From NCBI GenBank assembly GCA_012729055.1, contig JAAYDW010000042.1, forward strand, positions 1 to 42,972: a stretch of 42,972 bases of DNA. The letters run 5' to 3'. Each line of letters begins with the position of its first letter. The first letter of the stretch is position 1. This document shows positions 10,967 to 21,424 of the stretch, one piece after another. The notes under the pieces were generated by a model. The model did no database searches and was not told the DNA's origin. It worked only from the letters and a program-made list of their open reading frames with translations. This stretch comes from Deltaproteobacteria bacterium. GTDB lineage: Bacteria > Desulfobacterota > Syntrophia > Syntrophales > Smithellaceae. A program made the position numbers and the translations under genes.

Positions 10967-12310
10967 CTAAAACGACCTCACCACGTCCTTGAAAAAATTC
11001 CCCCGTTCCTTGTAATTGGCAAATTCGTCGAAGCTCGCGCATCCCGGCGAGAGCAGCACAACATCCCCCGGACGGGCGTCGCGATACGCCCGGCGCGTCG
11101 CGTTTTCCAGCGTGGACTCCTTGACGCTCGGCACGCCCCGGCCGATCTGAGGTTCGATGCGGTCGCGCGCCTCGCCGAATAAAATCACCTGTTTGGCTTT
11201 CTTCTCCAAAATCCCCGTAAGCGCGGTAAAATCGCTGTCCTTGTCGCGGCCGCCGAGAAGCAAAATCACGGGCCGGTCGAAGGTTTCGAGCGCCCGGACG
11301 ACGGCATCCACATTCGTGCCCTTGGAGTCGTCGTAAAACCGGACGGCGTTTTTCTCGCCGGCAAACTCAATGCGGTGCGGAAGCCCGCGGAATCGGGAAA
11401 CGGTCTTTGCGATGCTCTCGGGATCCGCGCCGCAGCATCGCGCCGCCGCCAGCGCCGCCATGACGTTCTCCACGTTGTGCCGGCCCGGCAGCCGGATCAG
11501 GCCGAGCGGATAGCGCTCAGGGGCGTCGTTTTGCATCCGGCAGCAGATTGCGTCGTCTTCGAGCCAGAGGCCCTCCGTCTGTTTCCGGCGGGTGCTGAAC
11601 CGGACGATCCGCGCGGAGAGAGCCTCGTCAAGCCCCTTTTGCGCCTCGTCGTCGGCGTTCACGATCGCCCAATCGGCGCTTTGCTGATTTTCAAACACCC
11701 GGGCCTTGATCCGCCGGTACTCGTCAAACGAGCCGTGGTAGTCGATGTGGTCGCAGGTGATGTTGAGCAACAGGGCAACGCGCGGGCGAAAAGTTTCGAT
11801 CCACTGCAGCTGGAAGCTGCTGATTTCGGCGACGACGAAATCGTCGGTCTGCGCCGTGTTCGCGTAATCGATAAGCGGATTGCCGATGTTGCCCCCGACA
11901 AAAACCTTTTTGCCCGCCGCGCTCAGCATTTCGCCCAGAAGCGTGGTGGTGGTGGTCTTGCCGTTGGTGCCCGTCACCGCAATCAGCGGCGCACGGAGAT
12001 GACGGTACGCCAGTTCGATTTCGCTCAGGATCGGAATCCGCGCTGTTTGCGCGGCGACCAGAATGGCGTTGCGGGGAGAAATGCCCGGCGAGGGAACGAC
12101 CAGATCGGCGCCCGCGAGCACGGAAGGATCGTAGGGGCCGACGGACAGCCACGGGCTGGCAAGGATGCGGTTGCAGGTCTCGCCCCATTCTGCCGCGGGT
12201 TTTTCATCGACCGCGACCACGGACGCGCCCTGCGCGCCCAGAAACGCGGCGGCGGCGATGCCCGTTTTCCCCATACCGATGACGATGCTTTTCTTTCCTT
12301 TCAGGTCCAT
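10967..12310 (-). CDS. murD: UDP-N-acetylmuramoyl-L-alanine--D-glutamate ligase MurD
   Basis: MurD adds D-Glu to UDP-MurNAc-L-Ala. The 447-residue protein has the N-terminal UDP-binding fold (SIVIGMGKTGIAAAAFL), the ATP P-loop (VTGTNGKTTTTTLLGE, about residues 112-127) and the EISSFQLQ segment. The hinge and C-terminal domain carries FYDDSKGTNVDAVVRAL and LLLGGRDKDSDF, both diagnostic of MurD. It begins 7 nt after mraY and is joined to ftsW with no spacer. Confidence 0.97.
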   Translation of the reverse strand: MDLKGKKSIVIGMGKTGIAAAAFLGAQGASVVAVDEKPAAEWGETCNRILASPWLSVGPYDPSVLAGADLVVPSPGISPRNAILVAAQTARIPILSEIELAYRHLRAPLIAVTGTNGKTTTTTLLGEMLSAAGKKVFVGGNIGNPLIDYANTAQTDDFVVAEISSFQLQWIETFRPRVALLLNITCDHIDYHGSFDEYRRIKARVFENQQSADWAIVNADDEAQKGLDEALSARIVRFSTRRKQTEGLWLEDDAICCRMQNDAPERYPLGLIRLPGRHNVENVMAALAAARCCGADPESIAKTVSRFRGLPHRIEFAGEKNAVRFYDDSKGTNVDAVVRALETFDRPVILLLGGRDKDSDFTALTGILEKKAKQVILFGEARDRIEPQIGRGVPSVKESTLENATRRAYRDARPGDVVLLSPGCASFDEFANYKERGNFFKDVVRSF

Positions 12311-16389: not shown

Positions 16390-18381
16390 CTAGTCTTTCC
16401 TTTCAAAGACGACCCGGCACAGCCGTTCGTCGCCCAGCGCCGAACCGGGCGCCGGCATCTGTTTTACCGCCCAGCCGCTTCCCGAAATCTGCAGATCGAT
16501 GGAGCGCGACTTCGCTTTGCGCAGGGCTTCACGAATCGTGAGGCCTGTAAAATCCGGCATGAGAGACGCATCGTCGTCGAAGTTCTCCTCCAGGACGGCC
16601 GCTTTTTCCAGCAGCGTTTCGTCCGCAGCCACCAGCTCTACGCTGCCGGGTTTGGGCGGTTCGAACACGGGCGTTTCCCGGATGTTCGTTTTAAAACAGT
16701 TGAGAATCTGTTCGCCGATGTTTCGGAAAACCGGCGCGGCGGCCACGCCGCCCCATTTGTCGCGCTGCGGTTCGTCCAGGATGACGAGAATCACCACCTG
16801 CGGATTGTCCGACGGGAAGAATCCGATAAACGACGTGCGCACGCGTTCCGAGGAATAGACGCCGCGCGCAAAATCGAACTTCTGCGCGGTGCCGGTCTTG
16901 CCGGCGACGTCGACATTGACGATATGGGCGTTCTTGCCTGTGCCGTCTTCGGCGCCGACTACCTGCGTCAGCATGGCGGTAAGGCGCCGGGACGTCTGCG
17001 CCGACACGACCCGACGGACGGTCTCCGGCCCGAACATTTTAATCGGCTGATTGTTCCGATCGGTCAGCCCCCGGACGACGAAAGGCTTCATCAGAACGCC
17101 TTCGTTGGCGATCGCCGACATCGCGGTGATGAGCTGAATGGCCGTGACGGATATCCCCTGGCCGAAAGCGATCGCCGCCGTATCCACGCGTGTCCAGTTT
17201 TTTGCGGGTCTCAGCAGGCCGATCGCCTCGCCGGACAAGTCGATGCCCGTCTTCGCCCCGAAGCCGAAACTCCGGATATAATCGTAGTACTTTTCCCGGC
17301 CGAGCTTTTCCGCGATTTTCGCGGAGCCGATGTTGCTCGAGTATTTCAGAATGTCGCGCACGGACAGGTAGCCGTGGCGTTTCCGGTTGGCCTCGCGAAT
17401 CACCCGGTTGGCGACGACGTAATGGCCGTTTTCGCAGAAAAACCGGTCCGCTTCCCGAACGACTTTTTCCTCCAGGGCAGCGGCGACCAGAAACGGCTTG
17501 AAGGTGGACCCGGGATCAAACGCGTCCGCAATGGCGCGGTTGCGCCAGATGTCGGGCGTGAGCCTCCGAATGTTGTTGGGATTGAACGCCTTCTCATTGG
17601 CCAAAGCCAGAATTTCGCCTGTCTTCGGATCCATGACGATGGCAACGCCGCCCTTGGCTCCCTTGTCCTGCACCGCCTGTTTCAGATGCGTCTCCACCAG
17701 ATACTGAATGCGGCTGTCGATGGTCAGCACCAGGTTGGCGCTGCTGTCCCGGGGCGAAGCCGCGCGTTCCACGTGCAGAAAAAGTTTTTTCCCTTTCGCG
17801 TCTCTCGCCCAGGTCAGTTTCTCCGGTTTTCCCCGCAGATAGGCATCGTACTTTTTTTCCAGCCCTTCAAGCCCTTCGGCGTCGAAACCGGAAAAGCCGA
17901 TCAGATGAGCGGCAAGCGGTCCGTTGGGATAAAACCGTTTCGGTTCCTTGATCAGAAAAACGCCTTCGATATTTGCCGCCTCGACCTGGGCGGCCTGTTC
18001 GGGCGATATTTTCCTGGCCAGCCAGCAAAAGCTCTTCGGCTCGGAAATTTTCCGAAAAACCGTTTCGGCGTTGAGATTCAAAACTGCCGCGATCCGGCGG
18101 GACGCCTTCGCGGGATCGTTGATCCGGGATGGGTCGGCGCACACGGAATCCGCCAGAACGGACATGGCCAGCTTCTCGCCGTTGCGGTCGTAAATCATGC
18201 CGCGCTCGGAATGGATCGGCAGCGTGGTGATGTGCTGGCGCTGGGCCATCTTCTTGAGCTGTTCGCCGGAGAGCACCTGCAACTGAAAGGCGCGCGACAA
18301 CAGCGCGATAAACAAAACCAGAAAGATCGCGAGAAGGCTCGCCAGCCGGAACTTCAGCCATTTTTTCGAGTCTGCCGCCAT
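16390..18381 (-). CDS. ftsI: Septal transpeptidase FtsI (PBP3) with C-terminal PASTA domain
   Basis: A class B penicillin-binding protein that cross-links septal peptidoglycan in the periplasm. One membrane anchor lies at about residues 12-30 and the dimerisation/pedestal domain follows. The transpeptidase has all three active-site motifs: SxxK (STFK, 292-295), SxN (SSN, 348-350) and KTG (KTGT, 495-498). After residue about 600 there is a single PASTA-like repeat (MPDFTGLTIREALRKAKSR...), absent from E. coli FtsI. The chosen ATG at 18381 lies 1 nt after the ftsL stop, with CGGAG about 8 nt upstream; an earlier in-frame start would sit inside ftsL. Confidence 0.96.
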   Translation of the reverse strand: MAADSKKWLKFRLASLLAIFLVLFIALLSRAFQLQVLSGEQLKKMAQRQHITTLPIHSERGMIYDRNGEKLAMSVLADSVCADPSRINDPAKASRRIAAVLNLNAETVFRKISEPKSFCWLARKISPEQAAQVEAANIEGVFLIKEPKRFYPNGPLAAHLIGFSGFDAEGLEGLEKKYDAYLRGKPEKLTWARDAKGKKLFLHVERAASPRDSSANLVLTIDSRIQYLVETHLKQAVQDKGAKGGVAIVMDPKTGEILALANEKAFNPNNIRRLTPDIWRNRAIADAFDPGSTFKPFLVAAALEEKVVREADRFFCENGHYVVANRVIREANRKRHGYLSVRDILKYSSNIGSAKIAEKLGREKYYDYIRSFGFGAKTGIDLSGEAIGLLRPAKNWTRVDTAAIAFGQGISVTAIQLITAMSAIANEGVLMKPFVVRGLTDRNNQPIKMFGPETVRRVVSAQTSRRLTAMLTQVVGAEDGTGKNAHIVNVDVAGKTGTAQKFDFARGVYSSERVRTSFIGFFPSDNPQVVILVILDEPQRDKWGGVAAAPVFRNIGEQILNCFKTNIRETPVFEPPKPGSVELVAADETLLEKAAVLEENFDDDASLMPDFTGLTIREALRKAKSRSIDLQISGSGWAVKQMPAPGSALGDERLCRVVFERKD

Positions 18382-18382
18382 A

Positions 18383-18730
18383 CTATTTCTCCGAAGGTTT
18401 GATGACAATCACCTGTTCCGCCGTGGGATAGGACATCTGCAGCTTGTTCCGGGCGATGTCTTCGATCCGCTGCGGCGATTTGAGCATGGCCATTTCCAGT
18501 TTCAGCTTTTTTTGTTCCTCCTGGAGCAGTTCCCGGGCCGAAAGCGCGGCGGCGATGTCGTACTCCATCTGGGTCATCCGAATGTGCAGCCCGACGTAAA
18601 CCAGCGCCACAAACATCAGAACCAGCGCCACCACGATGAACGTCGGATACTTCACGCCGAACGACGCGGCGGCGCTCTCCTTGGCGGGCCGGTTATGGGA
18701 AATCGCATGGGCTCCTGCCGTCTGCGCCAT
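18383..18730 (-). CDS. ftsL: Cell division protein FtsL
   Basis: A small bitopic divisome protein (115 aa) assigned from position, size and topology. It has a cytoplasmic tail, one membrane helix at about residues 28-50, then a periplasmic coiled coil rich in Glu/Leu/Lys (LSARELLQEEQKKLKLEMAML) and a conserved end-type stretch (RIEDIARNKLQMSYP). In the family it forms the FtsQLB complex that activates FtsWI. The ATG at 18730 has AAAGGA about 7 nt upstream and lies 2 nt after the rsmH stop; a TTG two codons earlier is less likely. Confidence 0.88.
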   Translation of the reverse strand: MAQTAGAHAISHNRPAKESAAASFGVKYPTFIVVALVLMFVALVYVGLHIRMTQMEYDIAAALSARELLQEEQKKLKLEMAMLKSPQRIEDIARNKLQMSYPTAEQVIVIKPSEK

Positions 18731-18732
18731 GA

Positions 18733-19668
18733 TCAAATCCTTTCTGCCACGCGCAGCTTTGCGCTGCGGGCGCGCGGATTTCGCCGGATCTCCGCATCCG
18801 GGGGCGTCGCCGCCTTGCGGGTTAAAATGTTCACGACGGCTTTCTTAGAGCAGACGCAGTATGGAATATCCCGGGGACAGACACAGGAGGCGGCCAGGTC
18901 CCGCAGGGTATTTTTGACGATCCGGTCTTCGAGCGAATGAAAGGAAATCACGGCCAGGCGTCCGCCGCTTTTCAGGGCCGCAACGGCGCTTTCGATCCCC
19001 CGGGGCAGCCGGTCGAGCTCGGCGTTCACGGCGATCCGCAGCGCCTGAAACGTCCGGGTGGCCGGATGAATCTTGAGCTGCCTCATCCGCGCCGGCATGA
19101 CGGAGGTCACCAGATCGGCCAGCTCCGATGTCGTCCCGATCGGAGCGATTCGCCTTTTTCGCGCTATGGTCTGGGCGATTCTTGCCGCCATTTTCTCTTC
19201 TCCGTATACCCGAATTATTTTTGCCAGTTCCGTAGGCGTGAAATCGTTGACAATATCGTATGCGCAAAGCTTCAGGTCGCGGTCCATCCGCATATCCAGC
19301 GGCGCACACCGACTGAAGCTGAATCCCCGGTGCGCCGCATCCAGTTGATGGGAAGAAACTCCCAGATCCAGAAGGACGCCGTCCACCTGATCGATCTGCA
19401 AATCCGCGAGCACCAGGGACAGATCGGCGAAATTCGCTTTCACCAGGACGACGCGCGATCCGAAAGACGCGAGCTTTTCGGCGGATGCCGCCAGGGCATC
19501 TTCATCGCAATCGATGCCGACGAGCCGTCCCGTGGTCGCCTCCAGAATCGCCCGGGCATGCCCCGCGCCGCCGATCGTACCGTCCACGTAGACGCCGCTT
19601 TTATTTCCCACCAGCCAGGAGAGCACTTCCTCGCGCATCACCGGTTCATGGGAAAATTCTGCGGTCAT
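18733..19668 (-). CDS. rsmH: 16S rRNA (cytosine-1402 N4)-methyltransferase RsmH (MraW)
   Basis: RsmH methylates N4 of C1402 in 16S rRNA using S-adenosylmethionine. The 311-residue protein starts with the family HEPVMREEVLSWL segment, followed by the SAM site (VDGTIGGAGHARAIL). It also has GVLLDLGVSSHQLD, RGFSF and the C-terminal ISFHSLEDRIVKN motif. It is the second gene of the dcw operon, 2 nt after mraZ, its invariant neighbour. Confidence 0.97.
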   Translation of the reverse strand: MTAEFSHEPVMREEVLSWLVGNKSGVYVDGTIGGAGHARAILEATTGRLVGIDCDEDALAASAEKLASFGSRVVLVKANFADLSLVLADLQIDQVDGVLLDLGVSSHQLDAAHRGFSFSRCAPLDMRMDRDLKLCAYDIVNDFTPTELAKIIRVYGEEKMAARIAQTIARKRRIAPIGTTSELADLVTSVMPARMRQLKIHPATRTFQALRIAVNAELDRLPRGIESAVAALKSGGRLAVISFHSLEDRIVKNTLRDLAASCVCPRDIPYCVCSKKAVVNILTRKAATPPDAEIRRNPRARSAKLRVAERI

Positions 19669-19670
19669 GG

Positions 19671-20117
19671 TCAGATCCCCAGACTGGCGGCAATCTCGTT
19701 ATCTCTGTCCATTTCAGCGCCGGCCGTTTTCAGTTTTTCGTCAAACTTGTCCTTCGGCCAGATTTCAATATTTTTCAACATGCCGGCCAGAACAATATCC
19801 TTCTCCAGGCCGGCGTATTCGCGCAGCGTCGGCGGAATCAGCACCCGACCCTGACTGTCCAGATTGCAGTCCACCGCTCCGGACATGAAGAACCGCTGAA
19901 AGTCGCGAAACTTCTTATCCAAAATGCGTTTCTTCGATATTTCTTCCTCGATGAGGCGCCATTCGGCGTAGGGAAACACAAGCAGGTATCCATCCCAGTT
20001 CGTGATGACCATTTTATTGTCATACTGCTCAGCAAAAATTTCGCGGAACTTCGACGGGAAAATTATTCTTCCCTTTTCATCAATACTGTGATGATATTGC
20101 CCACGAAATACGGACAT
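19671..20117 (-). CDS. mraZ: Transcriptional regulator MraZ
   Basis: MraZ is a ring-forming DNA-binding protein that, in bacteria studied, represses its own dcw operon. The 148-residue product has two tandem AbrB/SpoVT-like halves, each with the DxxGR signature (DEKGRIIFP near residue 13 and [10 protein letters not shown] near residue 88). It is the first gene of the operon and sits directly behind the promoter and GTGG-box array described separately, which fits autoregulation. GGAGGG lies about 7 nt upstream of the ATG and overlaps the last GTGG box. Confidence 0.96.
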
Positions 20118-20129
20118 TACACATTCCCT

Positions 20130-20153
20130 CCACGATGAGCCACTTTACTCCAC
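20130..20153 (-). promoter_or_regulatory. Predicted MraZ operator: three GTGG boxes with 10-bp period
   Basis: On the minus strand GTGG occurs at 20150-20153, 20140-20143 and 20130-20133, each followed by six non-conserved bases. The repeats therefore lie on one face of the helix. Published MraZ sites in other bacteria are tandem short G-rich boxes with similar spacing just upstream of mraZ. The array covers the expected transcription start and part of the leader, so binding would block initiation. Confidence 0.8.
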
Positions 20154-20159
20154 GTGGCC

Positions 20160-20188
20160 AATATAGAGGGGGAAAATGGCTTTGTCAA
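20160..20188 (-). promoter_or_regulatory. Sigma-70 promoter of the dcw operon
   Basis: A -35 box TTGACA (20183-20188) and a -10 box TATATT (20160-20165) are separated by exactly 17 bp. The -35 is perfect and the -10 matches 5 of 6. The predicted start lies near 20153, at the first MraZ box. Confidence 0.85.
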
Positions 20189-20235: not shown

Positions 20236-20258
20236 AAAAAAGGAGACCGCGACCGGTC
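20236..20258 (-). terminator. Possible terminator downstream of mltG
   Basis: On the minus strand a 5-bp GC-rich stem (GACCG/CGGTC, 4-nt loop) is followed by TCC and six Ts. It lies about 145 nt after the mltG stop and about 50 bp upstream of the dcw -35 box, where insulation would be useful. The stem is short. The rest of 20189-20401 shows nothing else I can assign. Confidence 0.35.
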
Positions 20259-20401
20259 GCAACGGCCGGTTCGGGACGAAGATGTTTCCGGACGGCGGCA
20301 AAGCGGATCCGCCGAAACTCTCCCCGCCGGGAAAACGGGCGGAGAAAATCAACAAAAAGCAATTATATTAAACGGATGGGGTTGTATCGGCCGGCCGGTG
20401 G

Positions 20402-21424
20402 TCACGGAGCATCGGTGGGCACGGTGCGCAAACGGACGATGGCGCTGTTGTGGGAGTCAAACGACGATGAGAAAAAATGGCTTCCGTCATTCTGGGAAAC
20501 GAAGTACAGGTAATCCACCGGCGCCGGATTGAGCACCGCCCGGTAAGAATCGAGGCCGGGATTGGCGATCGGACCGGGCGGCAATCCGCGGATGAGGTAG
20601 GTGTTGTAGGGGGATGCTCTTCTGTAGTGGCGGCGCAGCACTTTCCCGTTGAAATTCTTGAGGTCGTAAACGGTTGTCGGATCGCTTTGGAGCGGCATAC
20701 CCTTCTTCATCCGGTTGTAGAACACCGCGGCAATCAGGGGTTTTTCAGCGGTATAGCCGGTCTCCTTGCCGATCAGCGATGCAAAGGTGACAAATTCATG
20801 GGTGTTGAGCCCTTTTTGCGCCGCCTGGTTGATCATCTCCGGTGAAATTTTATCCCAGAAACGCTCCACCATCATCCGCATGACCTGACGGGTGCTCATC
20901 GACCGGTTCAGGTAGTATGTGTCGGGGAAAAGATACCCTTCGATCGAAGGTCCCGGAATGCCCAGCGAGGACAGAAATACGCGGTCCCTGGCCAGTTCAA
21001 AGAAGGTTTCTTCATCGATCATCTTGTATTCCCTGAGGCGCGCGGCTACCTCCTGAAGCGAAAAATCCTCGTGAATCGTCACGCGGTATTTTTTGATATC
21101 GCCGTGGAGCAGCTTGTCGATCAGCTGGGCGGGCGTGATGGACGGAACAAACTCGTACTCTCCCGCGCGGATCAACCGCGTCCCCCGTTTGACGACGACC
21201 AGGCTGTAAAACAAAAACCGGTTTTCAACCAGACCGGCGTCGGCCAGCATTTTCGTAACCCGGACAAAACTGGTGCCGGTCGGAATATCCACCAGAACCG
21301 GGGTTGTGTTCGTTTCATCAATCGGCAGGCGGGCATAGATGAATAAAAAAGCGCCGAAGACAAGGGCCGCCAGAAGCGGCACCAGCAAGGCATGACCTAT
21401 TATGCTAAGGATCTTTTTTTTCAT
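20402..21424 (-). CDS. mltG: Endolytic murein transglycosylase MltG (YceG-like)
   Basis: MltG is an inner-membrane-anchored lytic transglycosylase that cuts nascent glycan strands. The 340-residue protein has one N-terminal membrane segment (about residues 8-30) and a LysM-like region (IPTGTSFVRVTKMLADAGL). The YceG catalytic domain includes EGYLFPDTY, the ASLIGKETGY active-site stretch with its conserved glutamate, PLQSDPTTVYDL, YNTYLIRGLPPGPIANPG and YFVSQNDGSH. It follows ruvX by 49 nt and the two are probably co-transcribed. Confidence 0.95.
   Translation of the reverse strand: MKKKILSIIGHALLVPLLAALVFGAFLFIYARLPIDETNTTPVLVDIPTGTSFVRVTKMLADAGLVENRFLFYSLVVVKRGTRLIRAGEYEFVPSITPAQLIDKLLHGDIKKYRVTIHEDFSLQEVAARLREYKMIDEETFFELARDRVFLSSLGIPGPSIEGYLFPDTYYLNRSMSTRQVMRMMVERFWDKISPEMINQAAQKGLNTHEFVTFASLIGKETGYTAEKPLIAAVFYNRMKKGMPLQSDPTTVYDLKNFNGKVLRRHYRRASPYNTYLIRGLPPGPIANPGLDSYRAVLNPAPVDYLYFVSQNDGSHFFSSSFDSHNSAIVRLRTVPTDAP

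Follow-up and report, generated by a model that had tools for sequence, protein, structure and literature searches.

We found that the window (the whole stretch of 42,972 nucleotides analyzed here) carries, upstream of mraZ, a promoter followed by three GTGG boxes at a fixed 10-bp step, and that this array is very probably the operator through which MraZ regulates its own dcw cluster; from homologues we expect that MraZ would bind there and block the transcription start. The operator type itself is already known, and judged from its letters the array is a very well-conserved example of that type of switch. Additional to the sequence-only reading are the merging of the third box with the ribosome-binding site, the extra boxes lying 21 or 31 bp from an array, and the relaxed boxes of genomes whose MraZ has a shortened loop. 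In many bacteria, mraZ is the head of the division cluster.

The mraZ leader and the cluster behind it

The features of the leader, as predicted, and of the genes around it are as follows.

20236-20263, minus strand: terminator-like hairpin plus T run, separating mltG from the dcw promoter (consensus scan only)
20183-20188, minus strand: -35 hexamer TTGACA (sequence reading and consensus scan)
20160-20165, minus strand: -10 hexamer TATATT, 17-nt spacer to the -35 hexamer (sequence reading and consensus scan)
20150-20153, minus strand: MraZ box 1, GTGG, where transcription is expected to start (about 20153)
20140-20143, minus strand: MraZ box 2, GTGG within AAAGTGG (sequence; conserved register)
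20130-20133, minus strand: MraZ box 3, GTGG, its GG common to the box and the ribosome-binding site
20126-20131, minus strand: Shine-Dalgarno-like GGAGGG overlapping box 3 (from sequence and distance to the ATG)
19671-20117, minus strand: mraZ, 148 aa, the expected repressor (TIGR00242, 118.6 bits; cut-off, 98.35)
18733-19668, minus strand: rsmH (mraW) (TIGR00006, 342.6 bits; cut-off, 154.3)
18383-18736, minus strand: ftsL (TIGR02209, 55.3 bits; cut-off, 42.45)
16390-18408, minus strand: FtsI-like (PBP2/SpoVD-type) transpeptidase (best profile TIGR02214, 523.1 bits; cut-off, 688, not reached)
10967-12310, minus strand: murD (TIGR01087, 449.4 bits; cut-off, 211.95)

Read along the minus strand, TTGACA is followed after 17 nt by TATATT and, 6 nt beyond this predicted -10 box, by GTGGAGTAAAGTGGCTCATCGTGGAGGGAATGTGTA and then the mraZ ATG at 20117. 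The sequence-only reading had described this promoter, with GTGG every 10 bp after it, and all of these elements lie where it placed them. It had also put the boxes directly before mraZ; the upstream position holds, but the adjacency does not, as 12 nt separate the GTGG of box 3 from the ATG. The overlap by which box 3 runs into GGAGGG (20131-20126) is absent from that reading. Three direct repeats, each with a GTG core, make up the array, and their step is exactly 10 bp (7-nt repeat, 3-nt spacer). The pattern GTGG-N6-GTGG-N6-GTGG has a single match in the window, and none of 100 dinucleotide shuffles contains it. A TGTG at 20123 was considered as a fourth box and not counted, since its GTG starts at 20122, one base off register.

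The -35/-10 pair agrees with the consensus at 11 of 12 positions in the consensus scan. By count, such promoter matches are not above chance (2 found, versus a mean of 1.6 in shuffles of 2.5 kb); the promoter call is supported instead by conservation, TTGACA being exact in all 86 distinct Syntrophales leaders described below. Most of these relatives have TATAGT as the -10 hexamer, versus TATATT in the window. Terminator-like sites numbered 11 in 2.5 kb, versus a mean of 3.3 in shuffles, in the same kind of scan.

The MraZ protein matches PF02381 in two stretches (107.6 bits; cut-off, 23) and scores 131.8 bits against the narrower NF001482, under its cut-off of 168. Its predicted fold (mean pLDDT, 91.1) matches the solved MraZ 1n0e_A with a Z score of 20.8 and an rmsd of 1.7 over 138 aligned residues, including the two-domain architecture with two D-x-x-G-R type loops. 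Asp-13, Gly-16, and Arg-17, together with Asp-87, Gly-90, and Arg-91, were invariant among 26 aligned MraZ proteins; these loops are presumably the ones that contact DNA.

Behind mraZ, on the same strand, lie rsmH, ftsL, the PBP2-type transpeptidase gene, and murD, which marks the locus as a dcw cluster; of the reading frames behind mraZ, profile identification covered these four. Upstream of mraZ are mltG and ruvX. The former (20402-21424, minus strand) is the direct neighbor of mraZ, with the terminator-like hairpin between them, and an MltG-like sequence was seen in the flank of 73 of 80 Syntrophales mraZ loci.

We also searched the 3.36-Mb genome for further arrays. The three-box pattern gave two matches, versus none for a reversed control pattern; the second match (on contig C108) was rejected as an operator because a 611-aa reading frame of the opposite strand encloses it. 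Searching this genome for two boxes with purine lead-ins gave three sites, versus three for its reversed control, and this pattern misses the array of the window itself because C precedes boxes 1 and 3. Within the family of the window, the three-box pattern was present in 47 of 51 genomes; 47 of the 50 matches stood beside MraZ and 3 did not, and the reversed pattern had 5 matches. Four genomes lacked the pattern: in three of them no MraZ was found, and the fourth (G018) has MraZ. With no second strict three-box array outside coding sequence in the genome, a search that could miss single or looser sites, direct MraZ control is probably limited to the dcw operon here.

Conservation and placement of the array

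The Syntrophales sample was built from 80 MraZ loci of named records (a large share from Smithella, Syntrophaceae, or Syntrophales) and from the family of the window, in which MraZ was found in 48 of 51 genomes and 30 were taken as loci. It comprised 116 leaders, six of them fetched separately, and since the named and unnamed collections overlap and give duplicates, our counts rest on the 86 leaders that are distinct in their last 80 nt. The nearest records are Smithellaceae and Syntrophaceae, so the term "deltaproteobacteria" used in the earlier reading is right in its old sense.

In 84 of the 86 distinct leaders, all three GTGG boxes are kept at an exact 10-bp step, the two exceptions (L068 and L111) having ATGG or CTGG as the third box. 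The AA preceding box 2 was invariant in all 84 three-box leaders; the twelve core letters are invariant in this set by construction, because the leaders were chosen for having three boxes. Information in the array spacers ranged from 0.44 to 2.0 bits per position, and the values were 0.17 to 0.42 bits at positions -12 to -5 before box 1 and 0.04 to 0.49 bits at positions 30 to 33 after the array start.

For the wider phylum, we drew 118 genomes evenly and found MraZ in 107, of which 104 lie outside the family of the window. Their 104 leaders (30 taken as loci and 74 fetched) were reduced to 101 anchored by profile, with uncertain start codons in five (L141, L145, L164, L174, and L208); L214, L216, and L217 (genomes G120, G150, and G086) were dropped as unanchored. 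Among the dropped genomes, G086 shows two overlapping three-box matches about 35 to 60 nt upstream of its MraZ match. The 101 leaders contained 147 GTGG pairs at 10 bp, none at 9 bp, 2 at 11 bp, and 71 at 20 bp, versus 0.15 to 0.9 pairs per distance (0.35 at 10 bp) in shuffled leaders, and CCAC pairs were absent. At least two GTGG in register were found in 87 of 101 leaders (versus 1 of 101 shuffled leaders) and at least three in 51; 14 leaders had fewer than two. When any fourth base is allowed, at least two GTG in register were present in 93 leaders. At the level of families, two or more GTGG in register occur in 47 of 51, and some of the four families without such a leader have GTG with another fourth base. 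Thus, a loss of the boxes where mraZ is kept, which the sequence-only reading had named as the outcome that would speak against it, is not what the leaders show in either sample.

A few side observations belong here. An over-strict pattern with A at fixed places was abandoned, as it matched only 26 of the 118 genomes and also misses the array of the window. In L261 (genome G169), one pair of boxes (AAAGTGGGTATAAAGTGG) has an 11-bp step instead of the usual 10 bp, which is rare. L170 and L185, from one genus, and also L161 have AAATCCCATAAAGTGG or a similar sequence between boxes, where TCCCA may represent a degenerate box of the other strand.

The position of the array relative to the promoter is also constrained. 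The array starts between -2 and +9 nt from the end of the -10 element in all 86 distinct Syntrophales leaders: 6 to 9 nt past it in 79, and overlapping it (TATAGTGG) in 7. Elsewhere in the phylum, the start falls between -2 and +12 nt in 69 of the 81 distinct leaders in which both elements were found; in the other 12 the array is further off, under a promoter rule that prefers a 17-nt spacer. Of 100 leaders of this set, 13 have no array and 6 have no promoter by the same rule.

These data fit the repression by blocking of the start that the sequence-only reading had predicted, and they suggest the following mode of action, in which the spacing and conservation of the boxes are computed and the binding of MraZ is taken over from homologues. 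A sigma-70 type promoter would direct minus-strand transcription from about 20153. A ring of MraZ subunits (an octamer in mollicutes) would contact the GTGG boxes, which return with each helical turn along the same face of the DNA. Once bound, the ring would sit over the start site together with the earliest transcribed bases and exclude RNA polymerase, and this occlusion would restrain both MraZ and the downstream division genes, as a negative feedback. Within Syntrophales, the distance from array to -10 element varies by about 9 nt, with overlap in 7 of 86 leaders, so the precise mode of blocking is not necessarily uniform.

That MraZ binds but activates, or acts by pausing or as a roadblock after initiation rather than by simple blocking of the start, is unlikely in our view. 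The variation in array position, by about a helical turn, would suit such a role, and in Mycoplasma gallisepticum MraZ overexpression went with increased FtsZ, according to the available text of PMC8475190. In the same text, however, MraZ is described as the repressor of its own cluster in Escherichia coli, and loss of mraZ in M. genitalium raises mraW, MG_223, and ftsZ; the close approach of the array to the -10 end, in all 86 Syntrophales leaders and in 69 of 81 others, likewise argues against such a role.

Box 3, extra boxes, and the MraZ loop

In Syntrophales, the third predicted MraZ box doubles as a Shine-Dalgarno sequence, as read from the leaders. The third box reads GTGGAGG in 80 of the 86 distinct leaders of this order. 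Elsewhere in the phylum, GTGGAGG in register was seen in 0 of 101 leaders, and the array usually stands apart from the ribosome site; L153, outside Syntrophales, has GTGGAGG near the start, though not in the register of its array. The two bases preceding GGAGG are GT in 74 of the 80 mraZ loci, versus 23 of 456 other GGAGG sites on the same strand of the same loci. The comparison offered by rsmH was empty, with GGAGG within 22 nt of the start in 0 of 78. GT is no part of the Shine-Dalgarno consensus and yet is kept, which is best explained by MraZ.

The same evidence bears on the proposal that the repeats act in the mRNA, through ribosome standby or translational control, and not as DNA. The GGAGG at Shine-Dalgarno distance within the third box and the location of most arrays downstream of the expected start site fit it, but the first box of the seven Syntrophales leaders that overlap the -10 element would escape transcription, the GT before GGAGG is left over, and the usual separation of array and ribosome site in the rest of the phylum runs counter to it. 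We regard an action in the mRNA as highly improbable.

Isolated extra boxes were counted in the rest of the phylum. At 21 bp from the array, 9 were observed versus 0.79 expected, and at 31 bp, 8 versus 0.71; the neighboring distances gave 0 (22 bp), 1 (30 bp), and 2 (32 bp). A Poisson probability of 7e-13 (17 observed, 1.5 expected) ignores both the relatedness of the leaders and the fact that 21 and 31 were picked after looking. At 20 bp, 10 were observed versus 0.82 expected, which would fit arrays with a degenerate middle box. The extra boxes 31 bp upstream come from six families, and in four of the six (L120, L146, L173, and L206) only a few bases separate the box from the -35 element; the window has no extra box. 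Leaders with extra boxes, which belong to many families and in some of which the box follows right after the -35 element, are L120, L122, L129, L140, L146, L148, L170, L173, L183, L185, L192, L193, L206, L209, and L212.

A further departure concerns the fourth base of the box. In the order of genome G144 (leaders L245 to L273), MraZ was found in 38 of 41 genomes and 30 loci were read. The loop between the residues matching Cys-84 and Gly-90/Arg-91 was one residue shorter in all 29 readable proteins of this order. The fourth base of in-register GTG boxes was G in 38 of 90 boxes with the short loop versus 316 of 322 with the usual loop (112 proteins), a comparison that amounts to one evolutionary contrast and not many, because the short-loop proteins all come from one order and the usual-loop set is mostly Syntrophales. 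Individual genomes depart from the trend: G113 (L166) is a counter-example with the usual loop length and yet GTGT boxes, 2 of the 112 usual-loop leaders (L008 and L118) have under two thirds G at the fourth base, and the short-loop genomes of L245 and L273 have G boxes only. Boxes of the short-loop order look like GTGTCAYAAAGTG, the fourth base often not being G.

It is possible, if somewhat short of probable, that all of these features hold together as one grammar: arrays stepped at exactly 10 bp, extra boxes set 21 or 31 bp off (whole turns of B-DNA), a fourth base that tracks the length of the C-terminal MraZ loop, and, in Syntrophales, a last box plus ribosome-binding site read by both MraZ and 16S rRNA. 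In the titles and abstracts of the literature searched, we found no account of such a grammar of spacing and specificity or of the merged ribosome site. Operators of fixed spacing across a phylum, together with the contrast between loop deletion and relaxed boxes, are material for testing how the MraZ ring reads its boxes.

The relaxed boxes also weigh against a reading in which the G-rich repeats are kept because they fold into a G-quadruplex acting on mraZ. Such control has been proposed for Staphylococcus aureus, where the available text of PMC11796246 places a quadruplex in a G-rich tract downstream of the mraZ promoter and calls the motif conserved in other bacteria. The window does hold four ordered G runs (GG, GG, GG, and GGG), but two-G runs with loops as long as these would form a weak, two-layer quadruplex, and a quadruplex needs neither the GTG letters nor the fixed step seen in the pair counts at 10 and 9 bp. 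Moreover, the GTGT and GTGC boxes of one order break the G runs and keep the 10-bp step. A quadruplex is thus a scarcely credible reason for the conservation of the array, which we read as an MraZ operator. The main text of PMC11796246 has no mention of MraZ boxes, and the S. aureus tract may itself be an MraZ box array; if so, the G-quadruplex work would be read differently.

Comparison with known MraZ systems

The sequence-only reading held that MraZ operators are characterized in few bacteria, and this agrees with the literature: as far as the available text of PMC7761207 goes, the papers name E. coli, Bacillus subtilis, mollicutes, Corynebacterium glutamicum, and Burkholderia cenocepacia. 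In the literature searched, which lacks most subscription papers, neither titles nor abstracts dealt with the mraZ operators of Deltaproteobacteria. Our outgroups beyond the phylum were E. coli K-12 and published sites only.

The closest likeness is to Pmra of E. coli, for which autorepression is reported (Eraso et al. 2014, as cited in the available parts of PMC8475190 and PMC7761207). In K-12, TTGACA is followed by three GTGGG at 10 bp, so that both systems have a TTGACA promoter, three 10-bp repeats just past the -10 element, and a place at the head of the dcw cluster. Unlike the window, E. coli has G as the fifth letter (GTGGG) and GGGG at the would-be fourth box, and its box 3 is not the ribosome-binding site. 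In B. cenocepacia, PmraBc has four 7-nt repeats with 3-nt spacers downstream of the -10 element and over the start site, and binding of MraZ to an operator fragment was seen by gel shift (PMC7761207, available text). The 10-bp step is common to PmraBc and the window, and in the window, too, the array follows the predicted -10 element; the repeats number four there and three here.

For mollicutes, the site is given as (AAAGTGKN3)3 in the accessible portions of PMC5282649 and PMC8475190, which also report the motif only at mraZ in M. genitalium. This site shares the GTG core and the 10-bp step with the window, whose box 2 reads AAAGTGG; it differs in that boxes 1 and 3 of the window have no AA before GTGG and in the fourth base, which is G or T there and G here. 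Two cryo-EM entries, by their titles, show M. genitalium MraZ with its promoter (PDB 9r4j) and with a 4-box promoter (PDB 9sz7). The MraZ of the window matches these folds with Z scores of 19.3 and 19.8 over 139 and 138 residues, respectively, at 27 to 28% identity. By fold and title, they present a homologous protein on multi-box promoter DNA, as we propose for the window.
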